DNA of 64,000 nucleotides, from positions 1 through 64,000 of the forward strand of contig CAJFOI010000032.1 of NCBI GenBank assembly GCA_904396155.1, in the 5' to 3' direction. Source of the DNA: Candidatus Avispirillum faecium (GTDB lineage Bacteria; Bacillota; Clostridia; Oscillospirales; CAG-272). A program made the translations under genes and the position numbers. The notes under the pieces were generated by a model that saw only the letters and a list, made by a program, of their open reading frames with translations, searched no databases and was not told where the DNA came from. Of this stretch, positions 34,142 through 44,500 are shown one piece after another (position 1 is the first letter of the stretch; the number at the start of each line of letters is the position of its first letter).

Positions 34142-34170
34142 CGCGCACAAAAGGAGATCTGTCGAATGCA

Positions 34171-34203
34171 AGCCGCACCGACTGCCGGTGCGGCTTATTT
34201 CTT
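34171..34203 (+). terminator. Terminator between the UvrA2-type gene and the phage head cassette
   Basis: A 10-bp stem AGCCGCACCG (34171-34180) with CGGTGCGGCT (34186-34195), loop ACTGC, followed by TATTTCTTTT. It isolates the cassette from upstream transcription. Confidence 0.85.
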
Positions 34204-34263
34204 TTATTCGTTGCAAATATGCGACCAAGGCTTTTTGGGGGAGACGAATATCTTTTTTGTCGT

Positions 34264-34269
34264 TATAAT
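34264..34269 (+). promoter_or_regulatory. Candidate -10 element of the phage head cassette
   Basis: A perfect TATAAT 38 bases before the scaffold start codon. No good -35 lies 16-18 bases upstream (GAGACG is the best), so the promoter may need an activator or another sigma factor. Confidence 0.4.
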
Positions 34270-34306
34270 TGCTTCAGACTCCGCGAAGTCAGAAAGTGAG
34301 GTTGGC

Positions 34307-35134
34307 ATGAAAAAAGTTTCATTGAATCTGCGCCTGTTTGGAGATGGCGACGCTGTCGATGGCGGTGCGCAAAGCGCTGCGATGTCCAGCGAACAGACGG
34401 AGGACTGTGCTGCAGAACAGTCTGAAAAGAAAATGGGGCGTGGAGACGATAAAAAGAGGATTGCAAGAAAAGCACACCGTTCCGCCGCACCGGTTGGCGG
34501 CGACAAGACAGCATCTTCTCCTCGGACCGGAGAGGAGTCCGATGCAAAAGAAGATGCTGCAAAGGATGGTGTACAACCGTTCTCTTCCAAGGGGGAGGAT
34601 GGAGTAGAAATGCCGGCGTCTGTACTGCCTCGTGGGGCGATGCGAATCATCCAGGGTCTTGCTGCCATGTATCAGATGCAGGAGATGGATTTCGATGGGA
34701 TTGCAGACGCTCTTCGCCGAACGGAAATCAAAAACGCGCTGGAAGAAAGACTGCACCGGCGCAACGCGGCAAAGCAGTATCAGATACTATTGGGGGAAGC
34801 GGAAGCGATGTCTAAGAAAGTGCGGGGATTTGACCTGAAGGCGGAATTATCTGACAGGCGCTTTCGGGGGATGCTACGCGCAGGTTTTTCCGTGGAGGAA
34901 GCGTGGCGGGCGGTACATTTGGAACAGTTATTGGGTGCCGCTACCCGCAAGGCTGCGGAAAAAGGGGCCAGAGAGGCGGCAGAACGCATTCGCAGAGCAG
35001 CAGGGCGCCCTGACGAGAACGGAGTCAAGGGTCAGTCGGGAATTTCCCGAAAGACCAGCGTCGAGCATCTGACCGGTCGTGGGATCCGGGATATTCTTCG
35101 ACGGGTGGAAAACGGCGCAAAAGTTAAATTCTGA
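34307..35134 (+). CDS. Phage scaffolding-like protein
   Basis: 275 residues. The N-terminus MKKVSLNLRLFGDGD carries the LxLxLFxxGD motif typical of Firmicutes phage scaffold and capsid proteins, and the capsid gene just downstream has the same motif. Residues 20-110 are low-complexity and charged; from about 125 the protein is helical, charged and coiled-coil-like, with a basic C-terminus, as expected of a head scaffold that contacts the coat. GTGAGG precedes the ATG at 34307. It is first in the cassette. No protease or portal gene precedes it. The call rests on position and layout, not on a strong domain match. Confidence 0.65.
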   Translation: MKKVSLNLRLFGDGDAVDGGAQSAAMSSEQTEDCAAEQSEKKMGRGDDKKRIARKAHRSAAPVGGDKTASSPRTGEESDAKEDAAKDGVQPFSSKGEDGVEMPASVLPRGAMRIIQGLAAMYQMQEMDFDGIADALRRTEIKNALEERLHRRNAAKQYQILLGEAEAMSKKVRGFDLKAELSDRRFRGMLRAGFSVEEAWRAVHLEQLLGAATRKAAEKGAREAAERIRRAAGRPDENGVKGQSGISRKTSVEHLTGRGIRDILRRVENGAKVKF

Positions 35135-35163
35135 TTCCGCGACAGCGGAGAAAGGAAGAAAGT

Positions 35164-36528
35164 ATGACAAAAACATGCGATGAAGTTCTGGATCTGCAGT
35201 TGTTTGGTGCGGGCGACGTGGTACACGGCACCCAGGCATTTGTAAATGCAAATGCACCGGAGAACAGCACAGCTTATGTATCGACGCCGGGCAGCGAAAG
35301 CGGACTGTCTGCGGAGATGAAGACGTTTTATGACAAAACGCTCATCGAACTTGCTGGGCCGAGCCTTGTATTTGATCAGTTTGGGCAAAAGCGTCCCATC
35401 CCGCAAAACGGCGGCAAGACCATTGAATTCCGTAAGTTTTCCAGTCTGCCCAAGGCGCTCACTCCCATAACGGAGGGCGTCACGCCTACCGGCAGCAAGC
35501 TGACGGTGGTGCCTGTGACGACCACAGTAGATCAGTACGGCGATTATGTGGAGCTTACCGATATGATCGAGTTGACCAGTGTAGATCCCATCGTTGTAGA
35601 AGCGACCAAGCAGCTGGCCGATCAGGCAGGCAGAACCATTGATACGGTTGTCCGCAACCAGATTCTGGGGGGCACCAACGTATATTACTGCCCTGAAATA
35701 TCTTCCACTGGGGAAGAGACGGAGATCACTTCCCGTTCAGATCTCAGCGCAAATGCAAAGCTTCGGGTAAAGGACGTGTTCAAGGCTGCGGCGATTTTGA
35801 AGGCTATGAACGCACCGTCCATCGATGGCTCCTATGTGGCTGTGATCCATCCCTATGTGGCATACGACCTGATGCAGGATGCGGAAGGCCAGTGGCTGGA
35901 CATTCAAAAGTATACAGATCCTGCCACAGTGCTGCGGGGTGAGATCGGCACACTGGGAGGAGTTCGCTTTGTACAGACCACAGAAGCAAAGGTATACCAC
36001 GATGCAAATCTGGGGACCGCTCAGAGCCTGACGGTGACTGCATATACGTCTTCTGCATCGGATGTTTCCTGCTCTAACGGCGTGCCTTCCGCAAGCCGGG
36101 TTACGGTATCCGAAGCGGTGACAGCCGATCTGATCGGACGGGATGTGTATTACACTACTTCTTCGGACAAGGTGTTTGCCACCATTGTGGGTATAAATGC
36201 GACCTCCAAATACATCTATCTGGATGCCCCGCTTACTGGAGTTACGTATGCTTCCGGCGACAAACTCACTTCCGCCGGCTGCGGCAAAGACGGTGCGGCG
36301 GTATTCGCCACCATGTTCTTTGGGGCCAATGCATATGGGACCACCGACATCGGCGGCGGTGGGATCGAGCACATTGTAAAACAGAAGGGTTATGGAAATG
36401 ACCCCTTAAACCAGCGTTCTTCCGTGGGCTGGAAGGCTACCAAGGCAGCTACAAGACTTGTGGAAGAATACATGCTGCGGGTGGAATCCGGTTCTTCCTT
36501 CAACGGAAGCTCGATTGAAACAAACTAA
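35164..36528 (+). CDS. Major capsid protein, N4-gp56 family (HK97 fold)
   Basis: 454 residues. Recognised by the N4-gp56 hallmarks: STAYVSTPGSESGLSAEMKT, GQKRPIPQNGGKTIEFRKFS, ITEGVTPTGSKLTVV, DQYGDYVELTDMIELTS and, later, AVIHPYVAYDLMQD. Members form the icosahedral shells of many podo- and siphophages. The N-terminus EVLDLQLFGAGD repeats the scaffold motif. An insertion of about 75 residues near 285-360, rich in T, S and V, probably folds as an Ig-like or beta surface domain. A good AGGAAG site precedes the ATG. The gene is intact, with no frameshift. Confidence 0.93.
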   Translation: MTKTCDEVLDLQLFGAGDVVHGTQAFVNANAPENSTAYVSTPGSESGLSAEMKTFYDKTLIELAGPSLVFDQFGQKRPIPQNGGKTIEFRKFSSLPKALTPITEGVTPTGSKLTVVPVTTTVDQYGDYVELTDMIELTSVDPIVVEATKQLADQAGRTIDTVVRNQILGGTNVYYCPEISSTGEETEITSRSDLSANAKLRVKDVFKAAAILKAMNAPSIDGSYVAVIHPYVAYDLMQDAEGQWLDIQKYTDPATVLRGEIGTLGGVRFVQTTEAKVYHDANLGTAQSLTVTAYTSSASDVSCSNGVPSASRVTVSEAVTADLIGRDVYYTTSSDKVFATIVGINATSKYIYLDAPLTGVTYASGDKLTSAGCGKDGAAVFATMFFGANAYGTTDIGGGGIEHIVKQKGYGNDPLNQRSSVGWKATKAATRLVEEYMLRVESGSSFNGSSIETN

Positions 36529-36564
36529 CGATTAACTTACCAATGGAAAGATGAGGATGCGGCT

Positions 36565-36795
36565 ATGGCAAAAGCGATAAAAAATACTTCTGAAAAAGAA
36601 AAGACAAGGACTGTGTTTATTCCCCGGAAAAATAAAAACGATACGGAACGGTATGTGGCCGTCAACGGGGAGAACATGTTGATTCAAACGGGAAGAAATG
36701 TGGAGGTGCCGCTTCGCTTTGCCGAAGTGATTGAAAACTCACTGCGGCAGGATGCGGCGGCAGAAGCGTTTATTGAGGCGTACGCCAACGGCTGA
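36565..36795 (+). CDS. Small cassette protein, unknown (phage head-associated)
   Basis: 76 residues, 36 bases after the capsid gene. A basic N-terminal tail (KNTSEKEKTRTVFIPRKNKND) leads into a compact domain, with TERYVAVNGENMLIQTGRNVEVP and a final helix. The same kind of small protein follows capsid genes in Firmicutes phages, where the function is not known to me. Its basic tail could bind nucleic acid or the acidic scaffold. GATGAGGA precedes the ATG. Confidence 0.65.
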   Translation: MAKAIKNTSEKEKTRTVFIPRKNKNDTERYVAVNGENMLIQTGRNVEVPLRFAEVIENSLRQDAAAEAFIEAYANG

Positions 36796-36867
36796 CGTCC
36801 TCGTATGATGAGAGGGGTTGTGGTGCCGTGTGGCGCCACAACCCTGCAAAAGGAGGGGGGAATTTGT

Positions 36868-37239
36868 ATGACTGTGAATGAAGCAATTGCCCGCTGTGAC
36901 GAAATGACCGGCGATGGCAGTGGCAGAGAAGCAAAGCTGCGCTGGCTTTCCGACATCGAATCCATGATTTATGAAGAAATCGTCAGAACCCATGAAGGTG
37001 CGCCGGACAGAAGCGAATGGAAGCCTATTGCAGAAGAAGATGGAGAACGGGAGTTGTTTGCACAGGATCCATACGGAGAACTATATGTATTTTATTTAAT
37101 GATGCGCTTTCATTTGTTGCTACAGGATATGAGTCAGTACAACAATGCTGCAGCACTGTTTGCTGCGGCTTATACTACCTTTGCAGATTGGTACAATCGC
37201 ACCCATATACCGCTGTCCCAGGGCAGTATTACGTTTTGA
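36868..37239 (+). CDS. Head-completion/connector-like protein
   Basis: 123 residues, mostly helical: MTVNEAIARCDEM, then LRWLSDIESMIYEEIV, then a long helix YVFYLMMRFHLLLQD and NNAAALFAAAYTTFADWYN. The size, helical make-up and place after the capsid match phage head-tail connector proteins (gp4/gp6-like). AAAGGAGGGG eight bases before the ATG at 36868 sets the start over an upstream ATG. It ends 15 bases before the next gene. Confidence 0.6.
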   Translation: MTVNEAIARCDEMTGDGSGREAKLRWLSDIESMIYEEIVRTHEGAPDRSEWKPIAEEDGERELFAQDPYGELYVFYLMMRFHLLLQDMSQYNNAAALFAAAYTTFADWYNRTHIPLSQGSITF

Positions 37240-37254
37240 TATGAGGTATGTGAT

Positions 37255-39063
37255 ATGAGAGTGGCAGCACTAAAAGAGAACAAACGCAGCAAAGCGACAG
37301 TATCCTCCTTTACCGGATTGGACAAACGACCAAACCCGGGAGCCGGCGGTTTTTCCGATATGCAGAACATGTCCGGGAAGTATGCACCCAAAATGTCCGT
37401 TCGAGACAGGCGGGGAATTATGAATTTCGGGGAGGAGAACATATATAGCCTCTCCTCTGCAGATCTGTGCTTAGATGATATCATCTACCAAAATGTACTG
37501 ATTGCCGTTATGGGCAGAACGATCCGGGCATATTATTACACGGACGAAGGATCGCTGGAATTCAAAAGTGTGTTGGGAAGCGTTGTTTTTGAAACTTACA
37601 ATACAGAAAAGGAATGCATCATATCCGGCGGATATGCATATTTTTTTCCGGACAAGTTTTATGTGAACACAATGGATCTGACAGATTCCGGCAAGCTGGA
37701 GAGAACGGTGCAGCTGGAGACAGGGCCGATTTACAGTGAGGTGGGAGACGGGTATTATGAGGTCGTGCTGGAACCGTGCGATTTGGATGGCAATCCCGTG
37801 GAGGAAGAAACATCCTATATGCGGCTCATGCGCAAGAAGTATGCACTGGTAAATGGAGAGAAGGGAGATTTCATAGGATATATGGCATATGCCGATGGAT
37901 TTTCCGATCTGGATACAGTGACGATCTCCGGCTTTTCCCTGGATGCGCTCAATGGGGACTATTCCATACAGAAGGTAGATGTACTGAACACGTTTATTGT
38001 ACTACCCGGGTCCAAGGAAGTGATGCAGACCGGCGGTATTACCGTGACGGTGGCGCGATGGGTTCCGGATATGGATTACGTGGTGGCTGCGGGGAACCGG
38101 CTTTGGGGCTGCCGATACGGCGTGGATGCGGACGGCAATCCCATCAATGAAATTTATGCCAGCGCTTTGGGGGATCCCAAAAACTGGAACAGATTTCTCG
38201 GAGTTTCTACAGATTCCTGGCGGGCGTCTGTGGGTTCCAGCGGCATGTTTACCGGAGCGGTCTGCTATGATGGAAAACCGATTTTCTTCAAGGAAAATAC
38301 AATCATAAAAATCTACGGGGATTATCCTGCGGAGTTTACCATGACGGAGCACGCGCTGCGGGGGATCGAAAACGGCAGTGCGAAAAGCGCAGTCGTTGTA
38401 AACGATGTGCTGTATTACAAGTCTTCCAACGGAGTTGTCAGATATGACGGCGGTGTTCCATCCAACGTGGATACGGCACTGGGGAAGACCCGGTGGAGGA
38501 ATGCAGTAGCTGGTGGTGTGGACGATCGTTATTTTATATCCATGGAAGATGCGGACGGACAGCGCAGCCTGCTTGTGTATGATACGGTAAAGCGGCACTG
38601 GCACAGAGAGGACAATGTACCGGTGAAGGGATTTTGCCGCTGCGGCAATGAGCTGTACATGCTTTGCGCAGGGACGGAGAAAAACCAGGTTTACACGGTT
38701 TGCGGGTCCTATAACCGTCAGGACGGGGAAGACTCTGGAAGTCTGGAGGAACCGGTGTCCTGGTACTGCGAAACGCCGGAACTGGAATATGACTCTCCCG
38801 ACCACGTGTATGCGTCCATGCTGCAGGTACGGCTGGAGCTTCCTCTGGGGAGCCGTGTGCAGATTGATGTGGAGTATGACAGCGACGGGATATGGCGCAG
38901 GCAGCGGGTGATCGAAGGAAGAAAAAAGCGCGGGGTGGAGATTCCGCTGCGCCCGCGCAGGTGCGATCATTTTCGCATCCGCATATCCGGGAGGGGGGAG
39001 GCCTCCATCTGTTCGATTACCAAGCACACAGAGGAGTGCAGTGGAAAAGGCTGGAGATTGTAA
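37255..39063 (+). CDS. Large phage stabilisation/tail-hub-like protein (P22 gp10-like)
   Basis: 602 residues, beta-rich with repeated short strands: DIIYQNVLIAVMGRTIRAYY, VVAAGNRLWGCRYG, then ASALGDPKNWNRFLG. In P22 and N4-like phages a protein of this size and position (gp10) plugs the portal, and the phrase DP-x-NW with repeated G-N-R-L-W units is typical of that beta-propeller-like group. The N-terminal 25 residues are basic. No signal peptide. The TAA overlaps an ATG (TAATG) that opens a 20-codon frame. The gene is complete. Confidence 0.6.
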   Translation: MRVAALKENKRSKATVSSFTGLDKRPNPGAGGFSDMQNMSGKYAPKMSVRDRRGIMNFGEENIYSLSSADLCLDDIIYQNVLIAVMGRTIRAYYYTDEGSLEFKSVLGSVVFETYNTEKECIISGGYAYFFPDKFYVNTMDLTDSGKLERTVQLETGPIYSEVGDGYYEVVLEPCDLDGNPVEEETSYMRLMRKKYALVNGEKGDFIGYMAYADGFSDLDTVTISGFSLDALNGDYSIQKVDVLNTFIVLPGSKEVMQTGGITVTVARWVPDMDYVVAAGNRLWGCRYGVDADGNPINEIYASALGDPKNWNRFLGVSTDSWRASVGSSGMFTGAVCYDGKPIFFKENTIIKIYGDYPAEFTMTEHALRGIENGSAKSAVVVNDVLYYKSSNGVVRYDGGVPSNVDTALGKTRWRNAVAGGVDDRYFISMEDADGQRSLLVYDTVKRHWHREDNVPVKGFCRCGNELYMLCAGTEKNQVYTVCGSYNRQDGEDSGSLEEPVSWYCETPELEYDSPDHVYASMLQVRLELPLGSRVQIDVEYDSDGIWRRQRVIEGRKKRGVEIPLRPRRCDHFRIRISGRGEASICSITKHTEECSGKGWRL

Positions 39064-39125
39064 TGGAAGAGAAAAGGCGCAGATATTCTGTGCAAGGGGA
39101 TGATTATTATGAAATTCTATATTGA
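39063..39125 (+). CDS. Possible 20-residue microprotein or coupling ORF
   Basis: The ATG overlaps the stop of the preceding gene (TAATG), and GGAG lies seven bases upstream, so ribosomes would be expected to start here. The product begins MEEKRRRYSVQGDDYYE and is half charged. It overlaps the next gene by 17 bases. It could be a real small virion protein or only a way to pass ribosomes on. Nothing further can be said. Confidence 0.35.
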   Translation: MEEKRRRYSVQGDDYYEILY

Positions 39126-39285
39126 TCCACCTCCATTTTCAGAAGAGGGACAGAGCGATACGGCACAGCTGACCAGCTGGCTGTACGGACTTGCAGATAC
39201 GTTGAACGTGGTTCTGTCAAACCTGGGGTACGAAAACTTCAACCGGGAAGTCCGTGCACAGTTGGAAGAAAGGAGCAAACAGTGA
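39109..39285 (+). CDS. Small cassette protein, unknown
   Basis: 58 residues: MKFYIDPPPFSEEGQSDTAQ, then a helix SWLYGLADTLNVVLSNLGYENF and a charged end. I chose the ATG at 39109 with CAAGGGG nine bases upstream; another in-frame ATG lies three codons earlier. Its stop overlaps the GTG of the LysM gene. Such short helix proteins occur between the gp10-like and internal-protein genes of related phage cassettes. Function is unknown. Confidence 0.6.
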   Translation: MKFYIDPPPFSEEGQSDTAQLTSWLYGLADTLNVVLSNLGYENFNREVRAQLEERSKQ

Positions 39286-40064
39286 CATACACAATCAAAA
39301 AAGGGGATACGCTGACCTCTATTGCAAAAAAACACAATACCACGGTAGATGCACTGGCCAGCGCAAACAATATAAAGAATAAGAATTTAATATATGCCGG
39401 GAACACGCTGGAGATCCCTGACGGCAGCAGCGGGGGAGGGGCAGTCTCCGGCTCCTCAGGCGTGTGGAACACCGTTTACGAGGGCGCATCCAATGGCAAA
39501 GACAGCGGGTATCGGCAAAGTAATGATGTGCAGGATGCACACAAAGAGCTGGAAAACTGGCAGGACAGGCGGCCCGGTGCCTATGACAGCGCATACAGCG
39601 ATCAACTGGATGCACTGATCAGCGCAGCGACCGGTAGAGCGTTTTCCTATGACCCTCTCAGAGATCCCCTGTACAGAAGTTACAGAGACTCCTACAGACA
39701 GGGCGGCCGTCTTGCGATGCAGGATGCCATGGGGATGGCGGCGTCGCTTACCGGAGGAATGGGGAATTCTTATGCTCAGTCTGTAGGACAGCAGGCGTAC
39801 GGTGCATATATGCAGGATCTTGCCCAAGTGATCCCGGAACTGTATGAAGCGGCGTACGGCCGGTTTATCGACGAAGGAGATCAGCTGGAGGATCAGATCC
39901 AGCTGCTGTCTTCTCTGGATGATGCCCAATGGGATCGATATAACGATATGCTGGAGAATTATCTGGAAGAGGGAAGTTTTCTTTTGGACAAATACGAGAC
40001 GCTTTCAGATGCGGATTATGAGCGTTTTTTGGACTATATGGAGCTTCTTCGGGCATCTGTATAA
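39282..40064 (+). CDS. LysM-domain protein at the end of the phage head cassette
   Basis: 260 residues. The N-terminus is a LysM peptidoglycan-binding domain (about 1-47: YTIKKGDTLTSIAKKHNTT, then ending LEIPDG), followed by a Gly/Ser linker. The rest is helical: DPLRDPLYRSYRDSYRQGG, then MGMAASLTGGMGNSYAQSVG and YGAYMQDL, which resembles internal or ejection proteins of podophages. No signal peptide. The GTG start overlaps the previous stop, with AAAGGAG upstream. A LysM on a virion protein suggests contact with the host cell wall during delivery or release. Confidence 0.75.
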   Translation: MTYTIKKGDTLTSIAKKHNTTVDALASANNIKNKNLIYAGNTLEIPDGSSGGGAVSGSSGVWNTVYEGASNGKDSGYRQSNDVQDAHKELENWQDRRPGAYDSAYSDQLDALISAATGRAFSYDPLRDPLYRSYRDSYRQGGRLAMQDAMGMAASLTGGMGNSYAQSVGQQAYGAYMQDLAQVIPELYEAAYGRFIDEGDQLEDQIQLLSSLDDAQWDRYNDMLENYLEEGSFLLDKYETLSDADYERFLDYMELLRASV

Positions 40065-40070
40065 ATCATG

Positions 40071-40100
40071 AAAACGGCGCAGATTTCTGCGCCGTTTTTT
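40071..40100 (+). terminator. Terminator of the phage head cassette
   Basis: A perfect 12-bp stem AAAACGGCGCAG (40071-40082) with CTGCGCCGTTTT (40087-40098), loop ATTT, followed by more T. Confidence 0.92.
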
Positions 40101-40103
40101 TAT

Positions 40104-40138
40104 TATGACGTGTACATGTCATATTTATATGCTATACT
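40104..40138 (+). promoter_or_regulatory. Palindromic operator and promoter upstream of the structured RNA
   Basis: TATGAC-G-TGTACA-T-GTCATA at 40104-40123 is a 20-bp dyad with a single mismatched pair. TATACT at 40133-40138 forms a -10; the best -35 is TGTACA (40111-40116, 16-base spacer), inside the palindrome. A bound dimeric regulator would block the promoter. Confidence 0.55.
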
Positions 40139-40144
40139 ATAGAG

Positions 40145-40320
40145 AAGGCGGTGGAAGGTATGCAGGCAAACCATTGCTTAGCAGTGCCGGGGTAGGAGGA
40201 TATACTTGCTGCGCTACAGGGATTTATCGCTGTTGCACCTGGTGAGAGTGCATCTGTACAAACAAGTTTGAAACTGCAGCGAAAGGCTCTGTCCTACAGA
40301 ATGAAACGTCTTTGGGATGT
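40145..40320 (+). ncRNA. Candidate structured RNA or cis-regulatory leader, class unknown
   Basis: About 180 bases without a gene that fold well by eye. GTAGGA (40192-40197) pairs with TCCTAC (40292-40297), closing a multi-branched element with GCTGC/GCAGC inside it and hairpins ACAG...CTGT (about 40216-40233), TGCAC...GTGCA (40234-40252) and CAAAC-AA-GTTTG (40260-40271). A further GGCA/TGCC stem lies 5' at 40165-40188. No terminator or coupled Shine-Dalgarno pairing is evident. I cannot place it in a known class; it could be a riboswitch for the following gene or a free small RNA. Confidence 0.4.
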
Positions 40321-40347
40321 GCGCGAAAAGAGCTTCGAGAGGGAACT

Positions 40348-41109
40348 ATGAAATATACTATTGTTGATTATTTTGGATACGATTTATCTCCGCAAGAAAG
40401 AATGAAAGCGATAAAGCAGGCGGGTTTTGATGGTGTGATTTTATTGTGGGCGGATTATTTTGATGCCGATTATAGAGACTTTCCCCAATACGCCCAAAAT
40501 GCGGGGTTATATGTGGAGAATGCGCATGCTCCATATATGCAGGCAAATACCATATGGGAGGATACGATCACAGGACAAGAATACACAAATCAAATTATCC
40601 GCTGCATAAAAGATTGCTCTGTATATCACATACCCACTCTTGTGATGCATCCAATAAACGGGATAACACCTTTGCCTGAGAACGATATTGGGATAAACCG
40701 TTTCAAAAAAATTATGGAAGCTGCTGAAAAGTATAGTGTTAATATCGCTATTGAAAATCAAGGCAATCCAGAGTATATTGATTATGTATTTGGAAATATT
40801 CCATCCAATAGATTAAAATTTTGCTTTGACAGCGGTCATGAAAATTTTTATTCTCCGCATCTTGATTTGCTGAATTTATATGGAGATAAACTTATTGCAC
40901 TGCATTTACACGACAACAATGGACAAGAAGATGCGCATGCACTGCCTTTTACAGGCAATGTCAATTGGAACAGAATAGCAAGCAAATTAGAAGAGATGAA
41001 TTATACAGGAGCTATTGCATTGGAAACTTTGAATAAAGGTTTTGAGCACATAGAAAATCCTGTAGAGTTTTTGCAAATAGCACTTGATAGAGCAAAAAAG
41101 ATTTTATAA
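40348..41109 (+). CDS. Sugar phosphate isomerase/epimerase-like TIM barrel (xylose isomerase-like)
   Basis: 253 residues with the AP-endonuclease-2/xylose isomerase-like fold: QAGFDGVILLWADYFD, YVENAHAPYMQAN, PTLVMHPING, IAIENQGN, KFCFDSGHENFYSP, IALHLHDNNGQEDAHALPFTGNVN (read in parts), and a late ALETLNKG. The metal-binding His, Glu and Asp of the family are present. It probably isomerises or epimerises a sugar. Codon use is clearly richer in A and T than its neighbours, suggesting recent acquisition. GAGAGGGA before the ATG sets the start. It stands alone behind the operator and RNA element. Confidence 0.83.
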   Translation: MKYTIVDYFGYDLSPQERMKAIKQAGFDGVILLWADYFDADYRDFPQYAQNAGLYVENAHAPYMQANTIWEDTITGQEYTNQIIRCIKDCSVYHIPTLVMHPINGITPLPENDIGINRFKKIMEAAEKYSVNIAIENQGNPEYIDYVFGNIPSNRLKFCFDSGHENFYSPHLDLLNLYGDKLIALHLHDNNGQEDAHALPFTGNVNWNRIASKLEEMNYTGAIALETLNKGFEHIENPVEFLQIALDRAKKIL

Positions 41110-41112
41110 AAG

Positions 41113-41139
41113 AAAGCAGGGCAAATCGCCCTGCTTTTT
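41113..41139. terminator. Bidirectional terminator between the isomerase-like gene and mrnC
   Basis: AAAGCAGGGC (41113-41122) pairs with GCCCTGCTTT (41128-41137), loop AAATC, with T or A tracts on both sides. Confidence 0.85.
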
Positions 41140-41171
41140 CCTCATGAAGTGACGCCCGCTGGAGTCATTTT

Positions 41172-41537
41172 TTATTTTATAAATGCTTTTTGAAACAGTA
41201 TCTGCATGCGTTCCTGCTGTCCGGACAAATGCAGGTAAGCAAATACGCACTCCAGTCCGGTCGCCCTGCCGTACTGCGCTCTTGTGGCGCTTTTCGGGGC
41301 CGTGTGGGCACTGTTCCGGCCTCGTTTGTATACGGACAATTCTTCCGCAGTGAGGTCCTGCAGAATTTTATCTGCGGCAATGCTTTGGGATACGGCGGTT
41401 ACATATTCCAGCGCCCGTTCGTGAATCTCCCCTTTTCCGTCCAGTACCAGCAGTTCTCTTACCATCACTTCCAGTACAGCGTCCCCCAGATATGCCAGGG
41501 ACGCTGTGGGAAGCTGCATGATTTCCTGTGTATCCAT
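41172..41537 (-). CDS. mrnC: Mini-ribonuclease III (MrnC)
   Basis: 121 residues, an RNase III catalytic domain without a dsRNA-binding domain. In Bacillus this enzyme matures 23S rRNA. The motif LAYLGDAVLEVMVRE with its metal-binding Asp and Glu, and the downstream KRGRNSAHTAPKSAT, are typical. GGGAGG before the ATG at 41537 sets the start. It is last in the minus-strand operon, 17 bases after the transglutaminase gene. In many Clostridia mrnC follows cysS, so this neighbourhood is unusual. Confidence 0.9.
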   Translation of the reverse strand: MDTQEIMQLPTASLAYLGDAVLEVMVRELLVLDGKGEIHERALEYVTAVSQSIAADKILQDLTAEELSVYKRGRNSAHTAPKSATRAQYGRATGLECVFAYLHLSGQQERMQILFQKAFIK

Positions 41538-41554
41538 AATCCTCCCTTGCTGGT

Positions 41555-44500
41555 TTACAAAATACGTTTGATGTACCGCACCCGAATCTTCTGGAAGAGA
41601 TCCAGTCCCGCGTAAACAGATGCAGTCAGATCGCTGAGATACTCGCCGCAGATCTCCGCTTCTCCTGCGGTGAGGCCATGACCGAACTCCTCCTTTTGCA
41701 TGCAGGCCATCACTTCCAGAAAGCTTTCCGTAGAGAGATTTGCATAATCGCGGGATATGCGTGCGGCAAAATCCATGGGAAGCTCTCCCGGTTCGGGAGG
41801 ACAGCCCATAATACGAAAGATATCTAAGATCCAGTCGTTGATCTGCCGCAGGGCCTTGTGTCTGTCGGCTGGGCTTGCGCTTTCGTATGCTTCCTTTTTG
41901 CGGGCAAAGTTGATTACACGATACCGCTTTTCCAGCATCAACTGGGCTTTCTTTTGGATGTGACGTACGATCAGATATATGATGAATCCAAGTAGAACGG
42001 CACAAGCTGTGCCGCCGATCACCAGGAGAAAACGAGTGATCTCCGACATGGGCATATCTTCCTCCGGCGGAAGAATCGGGTGGTTTTCTTCCGGTTTCGG
42101 TTCCTCCGGCGTTTCGGGTATGTCCGGTGTTTCCGGGTTCGGCTCTTCTTCATCCGACGGCGTGGGAGCAATGGTAGCACCACTGGGGTCGTACATAGCC
42201 TGCGCATATTCTCCCGGAGTTACTTCATATTGCATCCAGCCCATCCCGTCAAAATACACTTCGATCCAAGCATGGGCATTGGCATCTGTCACATCAGCGC
42301 GGTAGGGCGCCCCGCTGGTACCGGCGGCGCGGGTAAAATCAGAGGCGATATATCCCTCTGCAAACCGGACAGGAAGATCATATTCCCGCAGAATTGCGGC
42401 CGCTGCTGTAGCAAAGTGCGTACAGTAGCCCTCTTTCACCTGGGTGAGAAAGGCGTCCAAGGTGCTTCCTTCCCCTGTGAAGGCGCTGCCGTCCGGGGTT
42501 TGGGTGTAGGTATAATTGTCGGCCAGGTACTGTACGACGGCGCGGATCAAATCGTGTTCTGTCACATCACCGTCCGCCTGCACTTTGCGGAGAATCTGGG
42601 CGGCGATTTCCTCTACTGCGGCGCTACCGGATTTTTCTGTATAGGTATCCTTTACGTACGTGCGGTACTGCTCTTCCAGCTGTACGGCGGCCCAGAATGC
42701 CCCCTGCTCCTCTGTGGTCATTTCATTGAAATACCGGTCCGCCAGATTGGTGCCGATGTATTCGATCCCATCCGACGCAAGGGTGTAGTCAAAGTCGGCG
42801 ATTTTCTCCTGGAGGCTGTCTTTTGAAAGATTTTCCCGCGAGGTTTCTGCAATAAACTCTACCGCACGCCGATAGTATTCCGCTGCGTTTTCCCGGCAGG
42901 CACCCACCTCGCTTCTGTTCAGCGTAGTGATAAAGGATACAGTACTGTATCCGGTGCCGGATCTGTAGAACCGGGAAGAGTAAATGCCGTCATAATAGTT
43001 GGAGTATTTGTATTCCGCCTCATCCAGGCTGCCCCAGGCCCGCAGGCCGATTTCGGAATTCATATAGGCGGGAACAAACAAAAGCAAACTGGAACCGCGG
43101 ATGCGCTGGACGTGGACCTGCTGAACGGTGAAGCCGTATCTGGAAAGATTTTTGTAGACATTTGCTTCCTGGATGTCTACCGAGGAAGGGTATATGTATT
43201 TGTTGAAATTGTATGTGATTTCATCCGGAGTAAAATCTACGCCGAAGGCGTTGCGGTAGCCCAGCACCTGATCGTAATCAGCTGTTGTCCATGTATCTGT
43301 CTCTCGGTCGAAGCGGGAACCGGTCCAGCTGCGCAGATAAACATTGTTTTCGCTGGTGGATTCCACGCGCAGGATCCGTTTGTCCTCAAATTCCAGGGGT
43401 TCAAAGGACAGGGAACGGGGCGTCAGCTCATTGATCCCGTAAGCGGACAGATCGTTGAGGTCTACGTCGTTGCCTGTGAGATATGCGGTCATATAGGCAC
43501 GGGCAATCTGCACTTTGTTGTTGATGGGCGCAATGATTGGAAAAGCGCCTTTGGACATGACCATCGGGAGCCACAGCGCAAGGAGGGCAAGGGCTGCCGC
43601 GCCGAAACCGGCAAATCCTCCGGCGGCTGTGACGGAAAAAGCGTGGGAGCGTTTTTCTTTTCGGCGTACCCGCCTTTCCTTACGCTGCGCTTCCTTTTGT
43701 GCTTTGCGCGCTTCTTTTTGCGCCTTTCGCTTTTGCTGCAACGAGGACAGTGCCTGCAGATTTCCCGCTTTTTTCAACGCAGACATTTCTTTTTTTTCTG
43801 CGGCAGCTGCTTTTCTGATCGCTTTCTTTTCCAGGCGTGCTTGTTTTTTGCTGTCCCGCGCTGCTTTTTTCGCCTGCCGCTTTTGTTCTTTTTTTGCCTG
43901 CCGCCAGGCGATGAATACAGCGTTGCGCGCCATGCGGGAACGGCGCTTGTCCAGATCTGCATCCAGGGAGGCGTTCAAAATTTCGTCCGCCTGCGCGCGC
44001 AGAACTTTCTTTTCCTCCCGCCTGCGGGCGGCTTTTTCTCTGCGTACTGACCGCCGCTGCTGCCGCCGCTTTTTTCGCGCTGCCTTGCGGCTGCGTGCAC
44101 CGGCATATCGGTAATCGTATATGCGCAAAACGATACATCCAAGGCAAAAAGCGATAATGCATCCGATACCCAGATTCCCTTTTGAAATATTGTAAGTAAA
44201 AACGGGAACGGTGACTGCCATTATGACGATGCACAAGGGAAGCAGGCGCACTTTTTTCAGCATACACAGTCCGAGAAGCGTTCCCATCAGCGCGGCAAGG
44301 AGGAATACGCCCCAGAACCGCGGAGGATCTGTGGGCATATATGCGGCGCTGCTGTAATCGACGCCATCCTGGACCATAAAGTTCCCCAGCGTGCCGTATC
44401 CCATTGTAGCCAGGTGATACAGAGCAAAATTATAGATGCGCAGAATGCTGTGCCACAAAAAAGCGATTGGATTTCCATACAGAATGGCACAAAGGCCGAT

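Follow-up and report, generated by a model that had tools for sequence, protein, structure and literature searches.

The question raised by this locus is what is represented by the roughly 205 nt that separate a promoter from the start codon of an isomerase-like gene. In the window (the whole 64-kb stretch of DNA analysed here) a palindrome, a promoter and a long leader precede a gene for a presumed sugar-handling enzyme, and the initial annotation took about 180 bases of that leader for a closed multi-hairpin element, presumably either a riboswitch, perhaps with a sugar-derived ligand, or an independent small RNA. The features from which the problem arises are these:

40070..40099, plus strand: strong intrinsic terminator of the upstream phage-like LysM gene, found by terminator scan, its position kept across the genus
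40104..40123, unstranded: putative operator dyad TATGACGTGTACATGTCATA, 20 bp, TATGAC-N8-GTCATA, at the same place in relatives
40111..40138, plus strand: promoter with -35 TGTACA, a 16-nt spacer and the extended -10 TGC-TATACT (TGCTATACT), found by scan, the -10 being kept in five of five relatives
40348..41109, plus strand: acquired isomerase-like TIM-barrel gene (AP_endonuc_2, 253 aa; Pfam E = 4.5e-26), whose orthologues align from the start codon

The palindrome itself is real. It covers the -35 of a promoter that the promoter scan recovers, it is conserved in place within the genus, and its exact form TATGAC-N8-GTCATA occurs once only in the 1.95-Mb assembly of this organism, in which no further copy with one mismatch was found.

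The supposed RNA structure fared differently. For 40140-40351 the minimum free energy comes to -60.1 kcal/mol, dinucleotide shuffles averaging -59.7 (z = -0.10), and sub-stretches of the leader gave z values of -0.91, +0.53 and -0.46; stability beyond that of shuffled sequence was seen neither in the leader or its parts nor on the opposite strand. At the gathering score Rfam places no family anywhere in the window, and hence none over the leader; relaxing the threshold to E <= 5 brought up only matches that were trivial or driven by the terminator stem at 40070-40099, with no riboswitch among them and no raiA motif, the known class that had been offered as a candidate. The loci of the relatives and the isomerase loci likewise gave nothing in Rfam. 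The closed multi-hairpin element is thus not borne out.

These searches, together with others, bear directly on the idea of an independent small RNA, or of a known class such as the raiA motif, that would end ahead of the gene. Such an RNA could draw on the extended -10 promoter, which is kept in the genus, but the terminator scan detects no terminator-like stem within the leader, and so no intrinsic terminator between promoter and gene, and the leader has no copy elsewhere: DNA searches of its own genome, of 196 genomes of the family and 394 of the order, and of phage and plasmid records returned only short operator-promoter matches and chance ones, and an exact 22-nt probe from the tail of the leader had no match in the genome collection. 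With the Rfam results added, this explanation has next to no likelihood.

A comparison of 39300-41700 with 17 genomes of the genus brings in two further features on the right-hand side:

about 41147..41185, unstranded: degenerate relic of the terminator that closed the old operon, placed by comparison with relatives, BLAST similarity resuming at 41147
41172..41537, minus strand: convergent Mini-III gene (Ribonuclease_3 domain; Pfam E = 4.8e-18), the conserved right neighbour by synteny

In the relatives similarity runs across the LysM gene with its terminator and on through dyad and promoter, ends near 40140, and restarts near 41147 at Mini-III. Five same-genus genomes match up to the promoter, similarity returns from Mini-III onward wherever the contig goes on, and in these relatives the gap between the two is filled by a regulator gene and its cargo. 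The regulator gene is intact at the locus in G076, G008, G549 and G561, and also in G560, where it is split over two contigs. It is some 300 codons long, begins with ATGCAGAC(A/G)AA(C/T)CGA or a close variant, and lies at about the same distance from the promoter in each; a domain scan finds HTH_11, WYL and WCX domains in its product, which makes it YafY-type. The cargo consists of a Zn_ribbon_2 protein, an Fpg-like protein and a DUF3788-DUF3795 protein in varying combinations, and the domain scan recognised no defence genes among it. The order in the sister species is therefore phage-like LysM gene, terminator, operator/promoter, regulator, often a second operator, cargo, terminator and Mini-III RNase.

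In L054, L055, L056, L057 and L059, relatives of the locus, the WYL regulator operon has repeated TATGAC-N7/8-GTCATA sites ahead of genes for a Zn-ribbon protein, an Fpg-like relative of the DNA glycosylases and a DUF3788-DUF3795 protein; both DUFs are nearly absent from the literature searched.

The left flank has features of its own. The LysM gene (39282-40064) ends a phage-like structural cluster at 34166-40064 that includes a major head protein (PHROG 1357, 35164-36528) and an internal virion protein (PHROG 511, 37255-39063). The head protein is matched in 16 of the 17 genomes of the genus, the window's own included, and in nine others the match covers all or almost all of the protein, at 72-89% identity; the LysM gene stays beside Mini-III in several genomes of the genus. 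No terminase, portal or integrase was seen among the proteins scanned. The cluster may be old and vertically inherited.

The leader of the window can now be set against the intact regulator gene, and divides into three parts:

40160..40172, plus strand: start and first codons of a decayed WYL regulator gene, ATGCAGGCAAACC
40174..40259, plus strand: internal remnant of the same gene, frameshifted, equivalent to gene nt 211-295 (about codons 71-98)
40260..40347, plus strand: the remaining 88 nt up to the isomerase start codon, with no similarity above shuffles

In the MAFFT alignment ATGCAGGCAAACC falls on the start of the regulator gene, while TTGCTTAGC, from 40174, falls on gene nt 211 and onward, so that some 197 nt are absent between the two pieces; the 3' two thirds of the gene are absent from the window altogether. 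A DNA profile made by nhmmer from the intact genes only has its best place in the 64-kb window at 40167-40260 (E = 8.5e-8), and a profile with the promoter included matches 40088-40172 (E = 5.4e-13). Smith-Waterman alignment of 40173-40260 scores far above dinucleotide shuffles for G008 (z = 12.5), G561 (8.3) and G560 (8.1) and modestly for G076 and G549 (z 2.4-2.8), and identity to the relatives' genes over 40174-40259 ranges from 50/85 to 59/84 (59-70%). In translation, DILAALQGFIAVAPGESASV of the remnant corresponds to DILSALYGFASVGPGDTAPV of G008, and the translated stretch scores against G076 above 500 of 500 shuffles. Within the stretch that matches 40174-40259 the relatives differ from one another mostly at codon position 3, from which it follows that the stretch is coding in them. 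In the window the frame opened by the start codon at 40160 runs for 11 codons before a stop. Judged by this homology, the leader is largely a decayed copy of the WYL regulator gene, about 100 nt of it being homologous to coding sequence.

This bears heavily on a riboswitch, or another cis-acting structured RNA, that would sense a sugar-derived ligand and control the isomerase. The length of the leader (~205 nt), its G+C-rich predicted hairpins and the metabolic gene that comes next all speak for one, but they are opposed by coding homology across 40160-40260, by the fold statistics, the empty Rfam search and the lack of a terminator-like stem described above, and by orthologous isomerases that have no such leader, so that we regard a riboswitch as barely credible. 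In the genomes searched the leader has no homologue as a non-coding element from which covariation could be read, and the relatives carry the intact regulator instead.

The meaning of the dyad changes as well. Its exact form is shared by the window, G008, G561 and G560, while G076 has a near match and G549 a degenerate one, and in the relatives a second copy, with a spacer of 8 or 7 bases, often precedes the next gene after the regulator. A comparable dyad adjoins a regulator of like general type (as judged from its sequence) in L003, from another family of the same order, and another lies downstream of a distant homologue in L093, from the family of the window. The dyad is best described, from its conserved position, as the operator of the lost regulator's promoter, and is neither tied to the isomerase nor part of a sugar-sensing module. 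Position and repetition suggest that it was probably the regulator's own operator, in other words that the regulator was autoregulated. As a by-product, TATGAC-N8-GTCATA becomes a candidate operator for a group of WYL regulators of the YafY type.

A remnant of this kind might in principle have been put to new use, with a short upstream frame, either 11 codons long and starting at 40160 or 21 codons long and starting from a TTG at 40206, coupling or attenuating translation of the isomerase. A perfect AGGAGG precedes that TTG, the 21-codon frame (40206-40271) lying inside the remnant, and the closing TGA of one frame overlaps the isomerase ATG; but chance alone yields short frames in a decayed gene, and the same arrangement occurs in no relative. 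The 21-codon frame is probably due to chance, and reuse of this sort seems very unlikely. We would give an equally slim chance to the broader proposal that the stub is a working 5' leader controlling the isomerase, whether by translation of a short frame or by an RNA fold that has newly come under selection, which would make it a young leader derived from a pseudogene.

The tail of the leader, 40260-40347, showed nothing above shuffles when compared with the regulator, the relatives' cargo and the flanks of the isomerase. It may stem from additional regulator or cargo DNA in a decayed state.

The gene behind the leader had been described as a lone, acquired, sugar isomerase-like one, and the comparison upholds this: the product is an AP_endonuc_2 TIM barrel, and its DNA has a GC content of about 34-42%, most neighbours having 50-57%. 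One further feature belongs to it:

41113..41137, unstranded: terminator-like hairpin behind the isomerase gene, reported by the scan on the minus strand, with a T run that reads on the plus strand

No match to the isomerase at E <= 1e-20 was found in three other genomes of the genus (at least 92% complete), and viral contigs hold no relatives of it. A copy 77% identical occurs in another genus of the family (G030) in a different neighbourhood, between smc- and rnc-like genes as read from sequence alone, and the genome collection holds copies in other Clostridia at 87, 82, 79 and 69% identity. In the closest copies nucleotide similarity begins with the start codon (40347/40348), ahead of which the DNA is unrelated; the G030 gene likewise has nothing in common with the window upstream of its start codon. 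Since orthologues at 69-87% amino-acid identity have unrelated upstream DNA, the leader was not carried along with the gene. The isomerase gene is a newcomer, joined at its start codon. The Clostridia orthologues in L075, L077 and L078 have a common upstream stretch of their own, containing an inverted repeat that reads GGATTTTGACACCAAAATCC in L075; this stretch is unrelated to the leader of the window.

Homology, synteny, a broken frame and a junction at the start codon are what the locus displays, and it very probably consists of the operator and promoter of a lost regulator, followed by the stub of its pseudogene and by an acquired gene that has replaced the old operon. It would then be the decayed head of an operon that was probably autoregulated. 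Of the regulator, codons from about 5 to 70 would be gone and nothing recognisable would remain past about codon 98, with a stop breaking what was left of its frame; the old cargo would also have been lost, and the low-GC isomerase-like gene, bringing its own terminator, would have become attached at its start codon. Transcription of the isomerase would presumably now start at the old promoter and cross about 200 nt of non-functional stub. The promoter would probably no longer be governed by the old repressor, which is itself probably gone, because no orthologue of the regulator was found in the organism's own genome (an 85%-complete MAG), where an HTH-domain match was all that appeared.

The locus is thus a case of ordinary gene decay and replacement, not a new riboswitch, and one candidate riboswitch can be struck off. 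A surviving promoter and operator followed by a pseudogene stub mimic a regulated structured leader when a single genome is read, and comparison of the locus among sister genomes resolves such candidates fast.

Among known systems, the downstream protein resembles the AP_endonuc_2 enzymes (Xylose isomerase-like TIM barrel, PF01261) in its Pfam match, but differs from them in reaching the cut-off of no NCBIfam model, the best being CbiR, which scores 39 bits where 105 are required. For the regulatory region there is a resemblance in outline, by description, to BrxR, a WYL-domain repressor whose own promoter region contains inverted repeats to which it binds, another site being present ahead of a promoter further downstream (R-BOX1 and R-BOX2; PMC9122601): here too a WYL regulator is associated with repeats at its own promoter and at a second site downstream. 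The BrxR repeats, however, measure 11 bp, have a spacer of 5 bp and are found downstream of the -10 (PMC9122601), whereas the TATGAC-N8-GTCATA dyad of the window covers the -35, and the cargo in the relatives is without a recognised defence gene. There is also a parallel with YafY-type HTH_11-WYL-WCX regulators that have an operator over the promoter of their gene. The window departs from these in that the gene is broken, with an internal loss of ~197 nt, the 3' two thirds gone and an early stop, and in that an isomerase-like gene stands in place of the downstream operon, but its operator and promoter are placed as in the five sister genomes, and the remnant behind them aligns with the regulator gene.
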